A stretch of 64,000 nucleotides of DNA from contig NZ_SAIT01000019.1 in assembly GCF_004360145.1 (NCBI RefSeq), forward strand, positions 1 to 64,000, read 5' to 3'. Position 1 is the first letter of the stretch. The number at the start of each line of letters is the position of its first letter. This DNA comes from Aliiroseovarius marinus. Its GTDB lineage: Bacteria > Pseudomonadota > Alphaproteobacteria > Rhodobacterales > Rhodobacteraceae. The translations under genes and the position numbers were made by a program. Shown here one piece after another: positions 12,026-31,477 of this stretch. The notes below the pieces were generated by a model that saw only the letters and a list, made by a program, of their open reading frames with translations, made no database searches and was not told the DNA's origin.

Positions 12026-12059
12026 AAAAACGCGACGCCTGATCGGGCGTCGCGTTTTT
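12026..12059. terminator. Bidirectional intrinsic terminator between helicase and rnj
   Basis: CGCGACGCC (12031-12039) pairs with GGCGTCGCG (12046-12054) around a 6-nt loop. An A-run (12023-12030) flanks one side and a T-run (12055-12059) the other, so it works as a hairpin plus U-tract on both strands. It ends the helicase transcript (plus) and the nuo-birA-coaX-rnj transcript (minus). Confidence 0.92.
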
Positions 12060-14529: not shown

Positions 14530-15297
14530 TCAGAAAAATATCTCGGCCGCGGGGATGACCTCGCGGGATCTTGCTGTTGATAGGACAAGGTTGCCCTGCG
14601 CGTCCACTGTTTCAAATCGTCCCACGTATTCGTCGCGGGTGGTGCGGGCGGTAATGACCTCGCCCAGACGGGCTGCGCGGGCCAACCAAGCCTCGCGGAT
14701 GGGCTCGAACCCGTAAGTGGTGAACTGGGTCTCGTAATGCTGATAGGCCGGCGCCAAGAAGCCCAGAAACTCTTCTGGGGTGAGCTGTACGCCCGTTTCG
14801 CCTGCCAGACTGACCGGGGCTACGGCGGTAGCTTCGACCTGCTGGGTCTGCGGGGCGTCGATCAGGTTGACGCCGATCCCGATGGCGATGTGGCTGACCT
14901 GACCGCCAGCAAGACCCGCGCTTTCCAACAGGATGCCAGCCACCTTGCCGCCATTCAAAAGCACGTCATTGGGCCATTTCAACGACAGCCCGCTGGTGCG
15001 CCCGGTGGCCGTGGCGAAGGCATCGTAAAGCGCCAAAGACGCAACGAAGCTGCGCAGCGCAACCTGATCCGGGGTTTCATTCGGGCGCATGACCAGCGTG
15101 GCCGAGAAGTGACCACGTGGCGCGGCCCACGGCCTGCCCCGGCGCCCGCGCCCGGCTGTTTGCTCATGCGCAAGCACCCATGTGGGGCCCAAAAGGCCCG
15201 GCGCAATACGCCGGGCCTCTTCATTGGTGCTGTCCACACTGGCCAGAACGCGTTTCTCAACACTTTCAGGCCATTTGGGCAGGGCTTTATTTGACAA
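14530..15297 (-). CDS. birA: Biotin--[acetyl-CoA-carboxylase] ligase (monofunctional BirA)
   Basis: A 255-residue biotin protein ligase that charges the biotin carrier proteins, including the MccA subunit encoded elsewhere in this window. Catalytic motifs are GRGRRGRPW (biotinyl-AMP loop, about residues 49-57) and [19 protein letters not shown] (about 103-121). There is no N-terminal winged helix, so it is the enzyme-only form and not a transcriptional repressor. The first 11 bp overlap the end of nuoN, which couples it to the complex I operon. Confidence 0.94.
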
Positions 15298-16735: not shown

Positions 16736-18277
16736 TTAATGCGCTGCGGCCTGAGCCATCTCTGCATCAGCAGGGATAGCGGCGTGGAAGTTGGTCAGAA
16801 GTGCCTCGACCGAGGGGCCAATGATGTCCGTGACCAGCGAGGGGTAGACACCCAGAAGCAGGGTCATGAAGACGAGCGGTGCGAAGATCGCTTTCTCGCG
16901 GCTGTTCATCTCGGTGATCGACTTCAGGCTTTCCTTGATCAGGTCACCAAAGACGACGCGGCGATAGAGGTACAGCGCATACGCGGCCGAGAAGATCACG
17001 CCCGAGGTAGCAACCAGAGCCACCCAGGTGTTGGCTTTGAACATGCCGACCAGCGTCAGGAATTCACCGACGAAGCCCGAGGTGCCCGGCAGACCCACAT
17101 TTGCCATGGTGAAGAACATGAAGATCAGCGCGTAAGCCGGCATGCGGTTCACAAGGCCTCCGTACGCGTCGATCTCGCGGGTGTGCATGCGGTCATAGAT
17201 GACGCCCACACACAGGAAGAGCGCGCCCGAGATAAAGCCGTGGCTGATCATCTGGAAGATCGCCCCGTCCAGACCTTGCTGGTTCAGCGCGAAGATACCG
17301 GCGGTCACATAGCCCATGTGGGCGACCGACGAATACGCAATCAGCTTTTTCATGTCTTCCTGCACCAGTGCCACCAGCGAGGTATAGACAATCGCAATCG
17401 CCGACATCCACAGGACGAAGCAGGCCATGGTGTCTGCGCCGATGGGGAACATCGGCAAGCTGAAACGCAGGAAGCCATAGCCGCCCATTTTCAGAAGGAT
17501 CGCAGCCAGAACAACCGAACCGGCGGTAGGCGCCTGAACGTGTGCATCCGGCAACCAGGTGTGGACAGGCCACATCGGCATTTTCACCGCGAAGCTTGCG
17601 AAGAAGGCGAGGAACAGAAGCGTCTGCGCGCCACCTACGATCTGAATTCCCAGCAGGCTGAAGTCTTCTGAACCAAAGCTGTGGTTCATCAGCGTCGGGA
17701 TATCCGTCGTGCCCGCATCGACGAACATATAGATCATCGCGACCAGCATCAGGACCGAGCCCAAGAAGGTGTAGAGGAAGAACTTGAAGGACGCATAGAT
17801 GCGGTCCTTGCCGCCCCAGATCCCGATGATCAGGAACATCGGGATCAGGCCTGCTTCGAAGAACAGGTAGAATAGCACCAGATCCAACGCCATGAAGACA
17901 CCCAGCATCAGGGTCTCAAGCAGCAGGAAGGCAATCATGTATTCCTTCACGCGCGCGGTCACGCCCCAGCTGGCCCAGATGGTCAGCGGCATCATGAAGG
18001 TGGTGAGCATCACAAACAGGACCGAGATCCCGTCGACGCCCATTTTGTACTTCAGCCCCATGATCCACTCGCCCTCTTCCACAAACTGGAAGCCGGTGTC
18101 GGCGGGATCAAACCCGACAAGCACCAGAAGCGAGAAAAGGAAAGTTGCAACCGTCGCTGCCAGCGCAAGATATTTCGCGTTACGCCCGGCCGCTTCGTCA
18201 TCGCCGCGCAAGAACAGCGCGAGGATCACCGCCGCGACCAGCGGCAGGAAGGTGATGATGGAAAGCAGGTTGTTCAT
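16736..18277 (-). CDS. nuoM: NADH-quinone oxidoreductase subunit M
   Basis: A 513-residue antiporter-like membrane subunit of complex I that pumps one proton. The key Glu is in [13 protein letters not shown] (about residues 137-149). Channel Lys residues lie around [23 protein letters not shown] (about 231-253). Length is typical. The start overlaps the nuoL stop by one base (TAATG), so the two are translationally coupled. Confidence 0.96.
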
Positions 18278-20825: not shown

Positions 20826-21440
20826 TTAAAGCCCCTGCCCCGGTTTTACGTCGATGATCTCCATCGCTTTGGCCGGGTCGCGGTGCATCTGGGCCATGAC
20901 GTTCTGGCGCTTCACATTCGTGCGGTGGCGCAGGGTCAGAACAATGGCGCCGATCATGGCGACCAGCAGGATCAGACCTGCCAGCTGGAAGAGCAGGATG
21001 TATTGGGTGTAAAGGATCTGGCCCAGAGCCTCGGTGTTGTGGGCCACGTCCAGCGCGGGGGTGACAGCAACGCGTGCGGCCTCGGCCCCGTCAGCGAATT
21101 GCCAAACGCCGAAGATGGTGCCCAGTTCCATCAGAAGGATCACACCGATCAGCAGCGCCAGCGGCAGAGACTTCGACATCTCGGCCTTCAGGGCGGCGAA
21201 ATCCACGTCCAGCATCATGACGACGAACAGGAACAGCACCGCAACCGCGCCCACATAGACGATCATCAGAAGCATCGCCACGAACTCGGCGCCCAAGAGG
21301 ACGAACAGGCCCGTTGCGCCGATGAAGGCGGTGATCAGCCACAGGACCGAGTGGACGGGGTGCCGTGCCATCACGGTAAAGAACCCGCCGACCACGGTGG
21401 TCAGGGCAAAGAGGTAAAAGGCGAAATCGGCAACGCTCAT
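20826..21440 (-). CDS. nuoJ: NADH-quinone oxidoreductase subunit J
   Basis: A 204-residue, five-helix membrane subunit of complex I. The N-terminus ([20 protein letters not shown]) and the third helix ([25 protein letters not shown]) carry the conserved pi-bulge-forming Tyr/Gly region of NuoJ. The start overlaps the preceding CMD-family gene by ATGA, and a GGAGGGGG ribosome site lies in that gene's end. Confidence 0.95.
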
Positions 21441-21844
21441 GCGTCCCCCTCCTCGTTTTCGTCAAAGACGGCTTGCGCTTCTTCCAGCGCCCGGTTCATC
21501 GCCGGCAGGCCGCCCAACATGGACATTTGATAGATCACTTCCGAGATCTCTTTTTCGGTGGCGCCGGCCTCGATGGCGTGGCGCACGGTCACTTTCAGCT
21601 GAGGTCCGGCCTGCGCGCCCGCGGCCACCAGCCCGGCAAGGGCCACCAGCATGCGGGTCTTCGCGTCCAGACCATCCTTGTTGAAGGTGTTGCCAAACAT
21701 CATGTCCATCATGTCTTTCGGCATGGTGGGCATCAGCTTGTCCAAACCCTCGGGAACGAACTTCTCGAGCGCAGGGTTGAAGGCGCGGAGCATCAAGGTG
21801 CCCTGCTCCAGCATTTCAGCGTATTTTTTTGATAGTTCGTCCAT
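21437..21844 (-). CDS. Carboxymuconolactone-decarboxylase-family protein within nuo operon
   Basis: A 135-residue helical protein. Residues about 58-125 match the CMD/AhpD-like fold: [21 protein letters not shown], then [33 protein letters not shown]. It contains no cysteine, so it cannot be an AhpD-type disulfide reductase. It also lacks the genes of protocatechuate breakdown around it, so gamma-carboxymuconolactone decarboxylation is unlikely. It is placed between nuoI (10 bp upstream) and nuoJ (4-bp overlap), so it is made together with complex I. A role in complex I assembly or stability is possible but unproven. Confidence 0.8.
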
Positions 21845-25502: not shown

Positions 25503-25916
25503 TCAACGCTCGTACAGTAACGAGCCGGCAAAGGTGCCTTTTTCCATCTCCGCACGGCCTACCGTGCAATAGGTTTCTTCCTGGCCCGCAACCACACCTT
25601 TCGACGCCAACAGAGGCTCGGCGATGGCGCGGAAACGGTCCTGTTCAGTTTCGCTGTCGACATAGGCCATGACCTCGCCATGCGAGAAGCCCAGCGACAT
25701 GGCGTGCTTGCGCAGCGAAAACGCCTTGTTCAGAAGGCGCAGCTTGCGCAATTTCAGCGCATCACAGTTTTCGTCGATCAGATAGGCGACCGACGCCCCC
25801 AGCAGCTCGGAATGCATCCGCGCATCCTTGCGCAGCGGATCGTAATCGGTGGCCTGTGCCACACCGGCAGCCAGAGACAGGCCAGCGGCCAGAAAAACAG
25901 TGCGAATACTCATCAT
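25503..25916 (-). CDS. Secreted hypothetical protein (DUF5333-like) within nuo operon
   Basis: A 137-residue exported protein. The Sec signal peptide is at residues 1-22 (hydrophobic [11 protein letters not shown], cleavage after AQA). The mature part is helical and charged, with two Cys ([15 protein letters not shown] and [12 protein letters not shown]) that may form a disulfide. From memory it resembles the DUF5333 proteins of Rhodobacteraceae, whose function is unknown. The start at 25916 is set by an AAAGGAGAT ribosome site 7 bp upstream; that site is locked in a perfect 10-bp hairpin (25922-25945). The location between nuoF and nuoG is odd for a periplasmic protein, since both neighbours are cytoplasmic. 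Its role in complex I biogenesis is conjecture. Confidence 0.75.
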
Positions 25917-25921
25917 GACAA

Positions 25922-25945
25922 ATCTCCTTTGTGTCCAAAGGAGAT
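25922..25945 (-). promoter_or_regulatory. Shine-Dalgarno-sequestering hairpin of the DUF5333-like gene
   Basis: On the minus strand ATCTCCTTTG, a 4-nt loop (GACA), then CAAAGGAGAT form a perfect 10-bp stem. The 3' arm contains the whole ribosome binding site of the gene at 25503-25916, and the 5' arm is a mimic of the 16S rRNA anti-SD. Translation should be low unless the stem is opened. Candidate openers are a ribosome, a protein, RNA cleavage or temperature. Confidence 0.75.
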
Positions 25946-25980
25946 GGTGATGCAGAGCGCTGTCATGCAATAACAACGCG

Positions 25981-26011
25981 CTGAAACGGGCGTGAAACCG
26001 CCTGTTTTCAG
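25981..26011. repeat. Imperfect stem-loop after nuoF
   Basis: CTGAAAC (25981-25987) with GTTTTCAG (26004-26011), and inner GGCG (25989-25992) with CGCC (25999-26002), form an interrupted hairpin in the 146-bp gap between nuoF and the DUF5333-like gene. It lacks a U-tract on the minus strand. Confidence 0.45.
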
Positions 26012-26062
26012 TATGTTGCGTTGCTTGATCATGATCCGGCCTCTATCCCGTCTATCGCCCGC

Positions 26063-27358
26063 TTACTCAGCAGCGATGCTGACTTTGCCCTGTTTATTCA
26101 CACGAATACGGTCTTCGATTTCATCGCGGAAGTTGTTGATCAGGCCTTGGATCGGCCAAGCCGCCGCATCCCCCAGCGCACAGATCGTGTGGCCTTCGAC
26201 CTGTTTGGTCACGTCCCACAGCATGTCGATCTCTTCCACGTCGGCCTCGCCTTTCACCAGACGATCCATCACGCGCATCATCCAGCCAGTACCTTCGCGG
26301 CACGGCGTACACTGGCCGCAGCTTTCGTGCTTATAGAATTTCGACAGGCGCCAGATGGCTTTGATGATGTCGGTGGACTGGTCCATGACGATCACAGCCG
26401 CGGTACCAAGGCCCGAGCCCAGCTCGCCGCGCAGATAGTCGAAATCCATGATCGCATCGCGCATGTTTTCGGCGCGCACACAGGGAACTGAGGACCCGCC
26501 CGGAATAACCGCTTTCAGGTTGTCCCAGCCGCCGCGAATGCCGCCGCAGTGCTTTTCGATCAGTTCTTCAAAGCTGATCGACATCGCCTCTTCCACCACG
26601 CACGGGTTGTTCACGTGGCCCGAGATGCCAAAAAGCTTGGTGCCAGCGTTGTTGGCGCGGCCAAAGCCCGCAAACCACTCGGGGCCACGGCGCAGGATGG
26701 TCGGAACGACAGCAATCGATTCCACGTTGTTCACGGTGGTCGGGCAGCCATACAGACCCGCACCCGCCGGGAATGGCGGCTTCATGCGGGGCATGCCCTT
26801 TTTGCCTTCAAGGCTTTCGATCAGCGCAGTTTCTTCACCACAGATATAGGCGCCTGCCCCGTGATGCAGGAACAGGTCGAAATCCCAACCGGATTTCGCA
26901 GCATTCTTGCCCAACAGACCCGCATCATAGGCTTCGTCGATGGCCGCTTGCAGCGCTTCACGCTCGCGGATGAATTCGCCGCGGATATAGATGTACGCGG
27001 TGTTGGCACCCATCGCGAAGGACGCGATCAGCGCGCCTTCGATCAGCGTGTGCGGATCATGGCGCATGATCTCGCGGTCTTTACAGGTGCCGGGTTCGGA
27101 TTCATCGGCGTTAATGACCAGATAGGCCGGACGTCCGTCGCTTTCCTTCGGCATGAAGGACCACTTCAGACCGGTCGGGAAGCCCGCCCCGCCACGACCC
27201 CGCAGGCCCGAGGCCTTCATCTGATCGATAATCCAGTCGCGACCCTTTTTGATGATCCCGGCTGTGCCGTCCCAGTGACCACGCGCTTTGGCGCCCGCAA
27301 GGGTGCGTTCGTGCATGCCATAGAGGTTGGTAAAGATCCGGTCTTTATCCTGCAGCAT
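26063..27358 (-). CDS. nuoF: NADH-quinone oxidoreductase subunit F
   Basis: A 431-residue NADH-oxidising subunit of complex I. The NADH/FMN-binding segments are [13 protein letters not shown] (about residues 54-66) and the Gly-rich [19 protein letters not shown] (about 168-186). The [4Fe-4S] cluster N3 is bound by [10 protein letters not shown] (about 345-354) and a Cys about 40 residues later (HTICALGD). It reads into a 146-bp gap holding two stem-loops before the next gene. Confidence 0.96.
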
Positions 27359-28783: not shown

Positions 28784-30006
28784 TAGCGGTCGATCTCCCC
28801 AAACACGATGTCCATGGTGCCGATGATGGCGGCAACGTCGGCCAGTTGGTGGCCACCGGCCACATAGTCCATGGCCTGAAGATGCAGGAACCCGGGCGCG
28901 CGGATTTTCGAGCGGTAGGGTTTGTTCGATCCGTCCGACACCAGATAGACGCCGAATTCGCCTTTCGGCGCTTCAACGGCGGCGTAGACTTCACCCTCGG
29001 GCAGCTTGAAGCCTTCGGTGTAAAGCTTGAAGTGGTGGATCAGGCTTTCCATCGACTGCTTCATGTCGCTACGCTTGGGCGGGGTCAGCTTGCCACGGGC
29101 CAGCACATCGCCCTGCCCTTCCGGCGCGCGCAGTTTGTCGACACACTGCAGGATGATCGACAGCGACTGGCGCATCTCTTCCATGCGGACGAGGTAGCGG
29201 TCATAGCAGTCGCCGTTCTTGCCGACGGGGATCTGGAACTCGAACTCGTCATAGCATTCATAGGGCTGCGCGCGACGCAGGTCCCATGCCAGACCCGAGC
29301 CACGAACCATCACGCCCGAGAAGCCCCAATCCAGAATGTCCTGCTCATCGACCACACCAATGTCAGCGTTGCGCTGCTTGAAGATGCGGTTTTCGGTCAG
29401 AAGCTCGTCCAGATCCTTGATGCGGGTCGGGAAGTGGTGGGCCCATGTCTCGATATCGTCGATCAGTTCGGGCGGCAGGTCCTGGTGGACACCGCCGGGA
29501 CGGAAATAGTTGGCGTGCAGACGCGCGCCACAGGCACGTTCGTAAAAGCCCATAAGCGCTTCACGCTCGACAAAGCCCCAGAGCGGCGGGGTCAATGCGC
29601 CCACGTCCATCGCCTGCGTGGTCACGTTCAGCAGGTGGTTCAGCACACGACCGATTTCCGAGAACAGAACGCGGATCAGCTGACCACGACGCGGCACTTC
29701 GACACCGGCCAGTTTCTCGATCGCCAGACACCACGCGTGTTCCTGGTTCATCGGGGCCACATAGTCCAGACGGTCGAAATACGGCAGGTTCTGCAGATAG
29801 GTGCGGCTTTCCATCAGCTTTTCGGTGCCACGGTGCAGAAGGCCGATATGCGGGTCGGCCCGCTCGACAATCTCGCCATCCAGCTCAAGCACCATACGCA
29901 GCACGCCGTGTGCCGCCGGGTGCTGAGGCCCGAAGTTGATGTTAAAGTTTCGGATCTTCTGTTCGCCGGTTTTGGCGTCTTCGAAGTTGTTGGATCCGTC
30001 CATCAT
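28783..30006 (-). CDS. nuoD: NADH-quinone oxidoreductase subunit D
   Basis: A ~407-residue subunit (49 kDa homologue) that forms the quinone pocket with NuoB. Conserved parts are [28 protein letters not shown] and [17 protein letters not shown], and the family's GxDxxLRRxxPY pattern near [10 protein letters not shown]. The start is ATGATG: the first ATG (30006) overlaps the sulfotransferase stop by ATGA, the second begins at 30003; both fit. No hydrogenase-type cysteines are present, as expected. Position downstream of a sulfotransferase rather than nuoC is unusual. Confidence 0.95.
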
Positions 30007-30860
30007 ACGCTCACCATCTTCTGGGTCCATTCCGACGGAAGTTCACCCATGAACTTCTCGACGAAATTGTATTGCGGTTTAAGGGCTGCTTGCAGCTGGG
30101 CCCGTTGGGCTGCTGGCAGGTCGGCAGACACGCTGCGATGCACCACGCGGTCAAACTGTGCCGGTTCATGGGTGATCCCCAAAAACGCACAAAGGCGCGC
30201 GATTGCGTCAGGCGTGAACAGCCGTTCGTAAAATTCAATGTGAAACATCCCAGTCGGCACAGCGGCGCTGAGACGGTTCAGAGTGCGGCGATAGTTCGAC
30301 CGCTCAAGGATGTTCGTGGCCGTCCCGTCCAGAACGCCCTTGATTTTGGCGTCCAAGGCAGCGCGTCCGCCCTGTCCTGCGACCATGCGGATGTTCGACC
30401 AGATGCGTTCCACCGGGTCACGCATCAAATAGACAAAGCGCACTTTGTCGGTCAGCCCGGCCATCGCACGGAAGGTTGCCTCTTTCAGCATGCCATAGGC
30501 CGGGGTGAAGTCCCCGATCAGTTTGGCATCGCCCGAGGCTTTCTGGACAAAGCTCAGATAGGCGGCGTCGTCGCGGGTTTCCCCGTCAAACGTGTCCAGC
30601 CAAGCCTCGCCATCCGCCAGCAGGCGTTGCTGATGCGGCTTCGGAGTGTCCTCTGCCGCCAGTCGGGCGCGCACGCCGTCCAGACGCTCTTCCAGCTGCT
30701 TGCGGTGCCAAGCTCCGCTGCCATGCTCAAGCGCGTCGAAATAGTGAAGCTCCTTCACCGCCGGAAGCTGACACTCCCGGTGCGCATTCAGGTAGTCGTA
30801 CAGCCAGCTTGTGCCAGCCTTCGTCGCCCCAACGCAGAATATGAAGGTTTGCCCACTCAT
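30003..30860 (-). CDS. Sulfotransferase-family protein inserted between nuoC and nuoD
   Basis: A 285-residue protein with the PAPS-dependent sulfotransferase fold. The 5'-phosphosulfate loop is [14 protein letters not shown] (residues 11-24, Lys14). The 3'-phosphate-binding segment is [16 protein letters not shown] (about residues 135-150). An LxxHxx-like KELHYFD at about residue 37 resembles the acceptor side of heparan-type enzymes. The start at 30860 ([11 protein letters not shown]) is 5 bp after nuoC and its end overlaps nuoD by ATGA, so it is translated as part of the nuo operon. There is no signal peptide. The acceptor (polysaccharide, lipid or other) is unknown. It is not a complex I subunit. 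Confidence 0.85.
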
Positions 30861-30865
30861 CAGGA

Positions 30866-31477
30866 TCAGCCTTTGGCCTCTTCCGTTTTCTCGTCGCCGG
30901 GCAGGATATAGTTTGCACCTTCCCACGGGGACATGAAGTCGAACTGGCGGTAATCTTGGGTCAGGGTTACGGGTTCATACACCACGCGCTTCTCGACCTC
31001 GTCATACCGCACTTCGGTATAGCCGGTGGTCGGGAAATCCTTGCGCAGCGGGAAGCCGCGGAAACCATAGTCGGTCAGGATGCGACGCAGATCCGGGTGG
31101 CCTGTGAACAGGATGCCGAACATGTCGAACACTTCACGCTCGAACCAGTTGGCCGATTTGTGGACTTCGGTGATCGAGGGCACCATCTCGTCCTCGCGCA
31201 CGGCCACTTTCACGCGGATGCGCTGGTTCGTGTACATGGACAGGAAGTGGTAAACCACGTCGAAACGGGCTTCACGCTCGGGATGGTCGACGGCGGTGAT
31301 ATCCACCAACGTCGAGAACTTGCAGCCGTTGTCGGTCTTCAGGAACTCGATAAAGGCCACAATACCCGACAGCGGTACGTTCACGGTCAGCTCGCCATAG
31401 GCGACATCCCAGTTCAGGACACAGTCGGGACGTTTGGCTTCAATGGTTGCGCCAAGTTCTTTCAGGGCTTCGCTCAT
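30866..31477 (-). CDS. nuoC: NADH-quinone oxidoreductase subunit C
   Basis: A 203-residue peripheral subunit (30 kDa homologue) of complex I, separate from NuoD here rather than fused as in E. coli. The family signature [31 protein letters not shown] is present from about residue 114. Start MSEALKELG; nuoB ends 3 bp upstream. Confidence 0.96.

Follow-up and report, generated by a model that had tools for sequence, protein, structure and literature searches.

A hairpin over the start of a DUF5333 gene in the nuo operon of Aliiroseovarius and its possible role as a read-through lock

Between nuoF and nuoG of Aliiroseovarius marinus, the Shine-Dalgarno sequence (SD) of a gene for a DUF5333 protein is wholly enclosed in a perfect hairpin, and a 15-bp palindrome lies a short distance upstream. 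We propose that the DUF5333 gene has its own promoter within the nuo operon, marked by the palindrome over its -35 region, and that transcription from this promoter begins in the loop of the hairpin. The short mRNA would then begin past the 5' arm and leave the SD free, and the read-through mRNA from the nuo promoter would bear both arms and keep the SD shut; in this way the hairpin would uncouple DUF5333 from complex I expression. We regard this combination of own promoter, loop start and read-through lock as the best explanation of the data, with a chance of being right that falls just short of even. The same type of promoter appears to be common to other, mostly exported-looking proteins of the bacterial family. 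More tentatively, we posit a previously undescribed regulator of the Rhodobacteraceae acting at TGnTATTGMATAnCA over the -35 region of exported-protein promoters, some of them leaderless; one of its targets would sit inside the complex I operon, where a hairpin found in this genus would silence read-through so that the gene obeys its own regulator only. In what follows, the window is the whole 64,000-nucleotide stretch of DNA that was analysed.

The hairpin at the DUF5333 start

The DUF5333 gene lies on the minus strand in the nuoF-nuoG interval, and the original prediction, which spoke of a DUF5333-like gene in the nuo operon, is borne out by a match to PF17267 (E value 9.5e-28, 97 bits, residues 27 to 134) that passes the gathering cut-off of 27 bits. 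The gene is present in 20 of 21 Aliiroseovarius genomes, the one without it being 56% complete, and four named relatives in the genus show 80 to 88% identity; in the family, 175 of 248 genomes have DUF5333 matches. The loci read were 130 from the family (the window's own included) and 19 more from the genus, 149 together, of which five without a tblastn start were left out, leaving 144 placed starts; when each genus is counted once there are 125 loci, and L002 stands for Aliiroseovarius. Literature searches found no paper naming DUF5333 and none joining the nuo operon, Rhodobacter capsulatus and URF, and the matches for TGTTATTG with Rhodobacter were unrelated, as judged by title. Two further non-nuo genes were seen in the cluster, both on the minus strand: a sulfotransferase-like ORF (by eye) at 30003-30926 and a gene for a carboxymuconolactone-decarboxylase-family protein at 21437-21844.

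Read directly, the plus strand at 25922-25945 is ATCTCCTTTG-TGTC-CAAAGGAGAT, and on the mRNA (minus strand) the order is ATCTCCTTTG-GACA-CAAAGGAGAT-TTGTC-ATG. The 10-bp perfect complement with its 4-nt loop, the inclusion of the whole SD (AAAGGAG) in the 3' arm and the distance of 7 nt from GGAG to the ATG at 25916 are all exactly as originally described; the ATG stands 5 nt past the 3' arm. With the 10-nt arms fixed and any 4-nt loop allowed, the 24-base pattern occurs a single time in the 3.13-Mb assembly. A search of the window for perfect stems of 10 bp or longer with 3- to 8-nt loops gave five matches, two of them at one place, whereas 12 dinucleotide shuffles averaged 0.58. The other places, at 12029-12056, 15194-15218 and 17819-17846, have perfect repeats that reach 10 bp or more around a loop of 5 to 8 nt.

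On the long mRNA, the computed cost of opening the DUF5333 SD is 12.8 kcal/mol, the highest among 17 starts of the cluster (the next is 7.4), in a comparison where the SD hexamers were picked by a script and are doubtful for some genes and where one of the 17 coordinates has no start codon. The 214-nt stretch around the hairpin has a folding z of -3.9. Rfam gave no match at threshold in the window or in 20 related loci, and the best match to a 221-base region (E 3.9) was far below threshold; a scan for intrinsic terminators over 25850-26120 found none.

Table 1. Positions of the features discussed, in window coordinates
Feature	Position	Strand	Remarks
Hairpin enclosing the SD (predicted lock)	25922..25945	minus	perfect 10-bp stem; loop GACA (25935-25932)
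Shine-Dalgarno sequence of DUF5333 gene	25924..25930	minus	AAAGGAG, within hairpin 3' arm
DUF5333 (PF17267) gene	25503..25916	minus	137 aa; N-terminus signal-peptide-like by eye
39-codon ORF	25913..26032	minus	MIKQRNILK...RCYCMT...KGDLS; stop included; coding status uncertain
Predicted transcription start	25934..25935	minus	in hairpin loop, within a few nt either way
-10-like hexamer	25942..25947	minus	CCATCT, weak; conserved base is the last T
Putative -35-like element	25965..25970	minus	TTGCAT inside palindrome, 17 nt ahead of -10-like hexamer
15-bp palindrome	25961..25975	minus	TGTTATTGCATGACA, member of TGnTATTGMATAnCA; DNA operator-like
Second hairpin	25981..26011	minus	upstream of the predicted promoter; expected in read-through mRNA only

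Within Aliiroseovarius, at least eight of the ten stem pairs are kept in 16 of 20 genomes, and the computed SD opening energy is at least 5.9 kcal/mol in 17 of 20; in L021 this comes from a shifted stem. The 3' arm coincides with the SD in 17 of the 20 members, the 5' arm CTCCTTT, most of which lies beyond the -10-like hexamer, is retained in 15, and the loop sequence is variable. Three members (L009, L010 and L017) have lost the stem and retained the gene, so the stem is dispensable; the original prediction had staked itself on the pairing persisting wherever relatives keep the gene, and in these three it does not. That prediction also looked to compensatory changes, and these are found at the inner pair, the only one that passes. 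Among 19 distinct genus sequences the inner pair is T-A in seven, G-C in five, C-G in two and unpaired in five; seven cells have both sides changed, a result as high in 0 of 500 shuffles, and the covariation score is 0.089, with a slid control at -3 columns scoring higher, at 0.102. The other stem pairs are mostly near-invariant in the genus and tell us little. In other genera, three loci (L022, L023 and L202) have eight or nine of the stem pairs.

The upstream palindrome and the predicted promoter

A weight-matrix search places the pattern TGnTATTGMATAnCA at 95 of 125 DUF5333 loci (one locus per genus). Its distance to the start codon is 42-147 nt (median 66), and its central G, its outer G and C and most core positions are near-invariant. 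In its strict form the pattern has 25 sites among 21 genus genomes, of which 19 lie at DUF5333 (reversed control, 1), and 52 sites among 120 family genomes, of which 18 lie at DUF5333 matches (reversed control, 2); at DUF5333 it stands on the gene's strand in 19 of 19 genus sites and 18 of 18 family sites. The palindrome behaves like an operator-like DNA element and not like an RNA stem, because pair 3 has G-T mismatches about as often as A-C ones (7 and 7 of 87; 8 and 9 of 95) and covariation is significant at pairs -1 and 2 only. On these grounds a covarying RNA hairpin (TGATATTGAATATCA, TGCTATTGAATAGCA) was set aside, and a structured RNA likewise found no Rfam family at threshold, with weak matches only.

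How might such an element be read by the transcription machinery? Inside the palindrome lies a -35-like TTGMAT, and the T at offset 33 from the first base of the palindrome, which ends the -10-like hexamer, does not vary among the 19 distinct genus sequences and is present in 60% of the 95 DUF5333 palindrome sites, which makes for a poor hexamer. A scan for the sigma-70 consensus around the locus returned no promoter match, so any promoter here would be weak or activator-dependent. Taking TTGMAT as the -35 element, a spacer of 17 nt and T33 as position -7 would put the start at offset 40, which in the window is 25935, the first base of the hairpin loop. The predicted start rests on this geometry and on the placement of the ATG in nine leaderless-like genes, described below. 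The conserved palindrome, the promoter-like geometry and the small ORF that crosses the hairpin had all been overlooked in the original prediction.

The computed energies set the two predicted transcripts apart. An RNA starting at 25935 is without the 5' arm and needs 2.5 kcal/mol to open the SD, and the six start points from 25940 to 25933 give 2.5-3.4 kcal/mol; with starts at 25942, 25945 and 25948 the lock is restored, at 6.7-10.3 kcal/mol. Over the genus (n = 20) the medians are 9.0 kcal/mol for the read-through RNA and 2.1 kcal/mol from the predicted start.

Away from known DUF5333 matches, 39 strict sites were read, with one (G042) of the 34 family ones left out. By eye, 30 of the 39 precede an ORF that looks like a signal-peptide protein or lipoprotein and nine do not; the ORFs behind the palindrome include a small protein with a CYADYKAK motif, glycine-zipper proteins, a cytochrome c, lipoproteins and others, and one of the 30 (L278) is apparently itself a DUF5333 relative. 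A Pfam scan of seven such proteins, trimmed to at most 110 residues, placed two above the cut-off (a glycine zipper and a cytochrome c) and one glycine zipper just below it, and left four without a family.

At nine of the 30 (L241, L242, L244, L245, L248, L264, L276, L279 and L282), the ATG stands at offset 40-41, counted from where the palindrome begins, which leaves no space for an SD after the hexamer. An ATG at the predicted transcription start of nine small exported-protein genes suggests leaderless mRNAs. These nine genes carry A at offset 29 in eight and T at offset 33 in eight; in the other 21 of the 30, T33 is present in 17 and A29 in only seven. The nine are not nine independent tests, since eight of them belong to one family (CYADYKAK) from different genera, whose one scanned member has no Pfam match, and since an ortholog of that family, L250, differs: its likely ATG lies about 30 nt further on, behind an SD-like stretch (by eye).

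A second hairpin lies between nuoF and the predicted promoter; counted with an outer 4-bp helix, 90.2% of its cells in the genus pair, and the changes are mostly one-sided G-U wobbles, a pattern that hints at an RNA stem in the nuo mRNA. Its covariation score does not stand out from shuffled alignments, 216 of 500 of which score at least as high.

Alternative readings and the reach of the model

The main rival to the read-through lock is translational coupling, in which ribosomes on a 39-codon ORF of the nuo mRNA would open the stem and start again at the overlapping ATGA, making DUF5333 output proportional to that of the leader ORF. This ORF starts shortly after nuoF, spans the palindrome and the hairpin and has a stop that overlaps the DUF5333 ATG, and across the genus the stop overlaps that ATG or sits within a few nt of it. 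The frame runs without interruption to the downstream start in 20 of 20 genus genomes, and the 19 distinct sequences have no stop in it where column shuffling leads one to expect 3.2 (P 0.01). A profile of the ORF matches 20 of 21 genus genomes at an E value of at most 3e-14, the profile having been built mostly from the same genomes; in the family it matches 40 of 295 genomes at E <= 0.1, ten of them, the window included, just upstream of DUF5333 and the others elsewhere or unplaced. Against coupling, the peptide gives no sign of selection, as its pN/pS of 0.67 differs little from the 0.81 and 0.72 of the other two frames; its CYC(M) core is the palindrome itself, which, counting one locus per genus, closes the ORF frame with a stop codon in 41 of 95; and ORFs in some frame cross the spot as well without a strong stem (57 of 63 loci) as with one (31 of 32). 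We consider coupling unlikely, if far from negligible, and it could operate alongside the read-through lock. The idea that CYCMT is a conserved leader-peptide motif is weakened on the same grounds, namely the identity of the motif with the palindrome and a pN/pS that gives it no support.

Is the hairpin special at all, or is it one of the common intercistronic hairpins of the nuo operon, with the SD included by chance? Loss of the stem in three genus members agrees with the latter, as does the behavior of nuoG in other genera: strong stems are as frequent at its start (7 of 30) as at that of DUF5333 (28 of 94; P 0.64), and outside the genus the DUF5333 SD is no harder to open than that of nuoG (5.1 and 4.3 kcal/mol; n = 20, P 0.33). 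Inside the genus the picture changes, for over one set of 20 genomes the median cost is 9.0 kcal/mol for the DUF5333 SD and 0.7 for that of nuoG; together with the compensatory inner pair and the retention of CTCCTTT, this leads us to hold a hairpin of no special function improbable. Decidedly improbable, in our estimate, is a DNA-level operator, that is, an inverted repeat at the start point that binds a repressor, with the RNA stem a by-product. The repeat does lie between the -10-like hexamer and the start codon, and elsewhere different inverted repeats appear near the same place, 21 of 94 loci having the loop centre at offset 37-46 where column shuffling predicts 2.6. These repeats nonetheless vary in sequence among genera (about five types by eye), the 3' arm coincides with the SD in most of the genus, and strong stems are rare at the other palindrome sites (2 of 25, against 32 of 94 at DUF5333; P 0.012).

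The original prediction favored a stem opened by a signal, such as an RNA thermometer, and the full pairing of the SD, the retention of the stem in most of the genus and the compensatory inner pair would all suit it. RNA thermometer stems typically contain mismatches. This stem is perfect, its loop sequence varies, it has no Rfam match at threshold, and its computed opening energy falls only from 13.0 kcal/mol at 37 C to 12.1 at 42 C and 10.6 at 50 C, so that the melting in the physiological range that characterizes ROSE and fourU elements is not seen in the computation. We consider this reading very unlikely. The broader claim that DUF5333 is switched separately from the rest of complex I is probably right, by way of an own promoter with a read-through lock and not a thermometer.

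How far beyond Aliiroseovarius would a read-through lock extend? Outside the genus, the median SD opening energies are 5.1 kcal/mol for the long RNA and 3.1 for the short one (n = 94, with some short values undefined). Strong stems lie near the DUF5333 start at 32 of 94 loci, where column shuffling would give 5.4, and 15 of these 32 have at least three SD bases in the 3' arm; the genera are related, which keeps such counts from being independent of one another. Where a genus has a CTCTCC/GGAGAG stem, the 5' arm contains the predicted start, and the short RNA would retain some of the pairing (in L199, for example, 10.5 against 9.1). Because the nuoG control matches DUF5333 outside the genus, in the frequency of strong stems and in SD opening alike, we dropped a family-wide start-point hairpin lock and limit the predicted lock to Aliiroseovarius and the three loci L022, L023 and L202. 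At L191, L207 and L214, the hexamer region (CCATCTGC or CCATCTCC) pairs with a downstream copy that lies upstream of the SD or partly over it.

Meaning and comparison with known systems

If the read-through lock is real, it would represent a general route to separate control inside a housekeeping operon, in which a transcription start point splits a hairpin that locks the SD, and it would account for an exported protein living among complex I genes. It would also tie DUF5333 to a candidate exported-protein regulon, whose motif could be used to find the regulator.

Rhodobacter sphaeroides belongs to the same bacterial family as the window's organism. In its CenR regulon, the targets are largely envelope and exported proteins and the motif is a TGA-N8-TGA direct repeat (PMC9275681). 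The genes behind the palindrome likewise look largely exported; unlike the CenR repeat, the element here is a 15-bp palindrome centred near -33, a mismatch on which CenR was rejected as the regulator. Elsewhere, a short ORF with a Cys motif reportedly lies upstream of a gene under copper control. A copper-responsive upstream ORF is described in PMC9426467. A short Cys-containing ORF also lies upstream of DUF5333, although here, unlike in that case, the DNA palindrome accounts for the Cys codons and the peptide shows no sign of selection.

Similar protection against read-through exists in IS10 and IS50, on which our literature search found no paper. The closest parallel is gene e (lysozyme) of phage T4, for which long upstream transcripts have the SD in a hairpin, late promoters lying just upstream and over the 5' part of the structure yield short, well-translated transcripts without it, and 5' ends, structure and a 100-fold effect are reported; T4 soc, 49 and I-TevI are shut by structure likewise (PMC3014915). 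T4 is a phage with timed promoters, whereas the present case concerns a chromosomal respiratory operon in which the lock is predicted only. In both, the SD is inaccessible on the long transcript (here by computation, at 12.8 kcal/mol in the window with a genus median of 9.0). In the present case a start at 25935, predicted from promoter geometry and nine leaderless-like genes, eight of them from one family, at a site lacking a sigma-70 consensus, would leave the 5' arm of the hairpin out of the short transcript.
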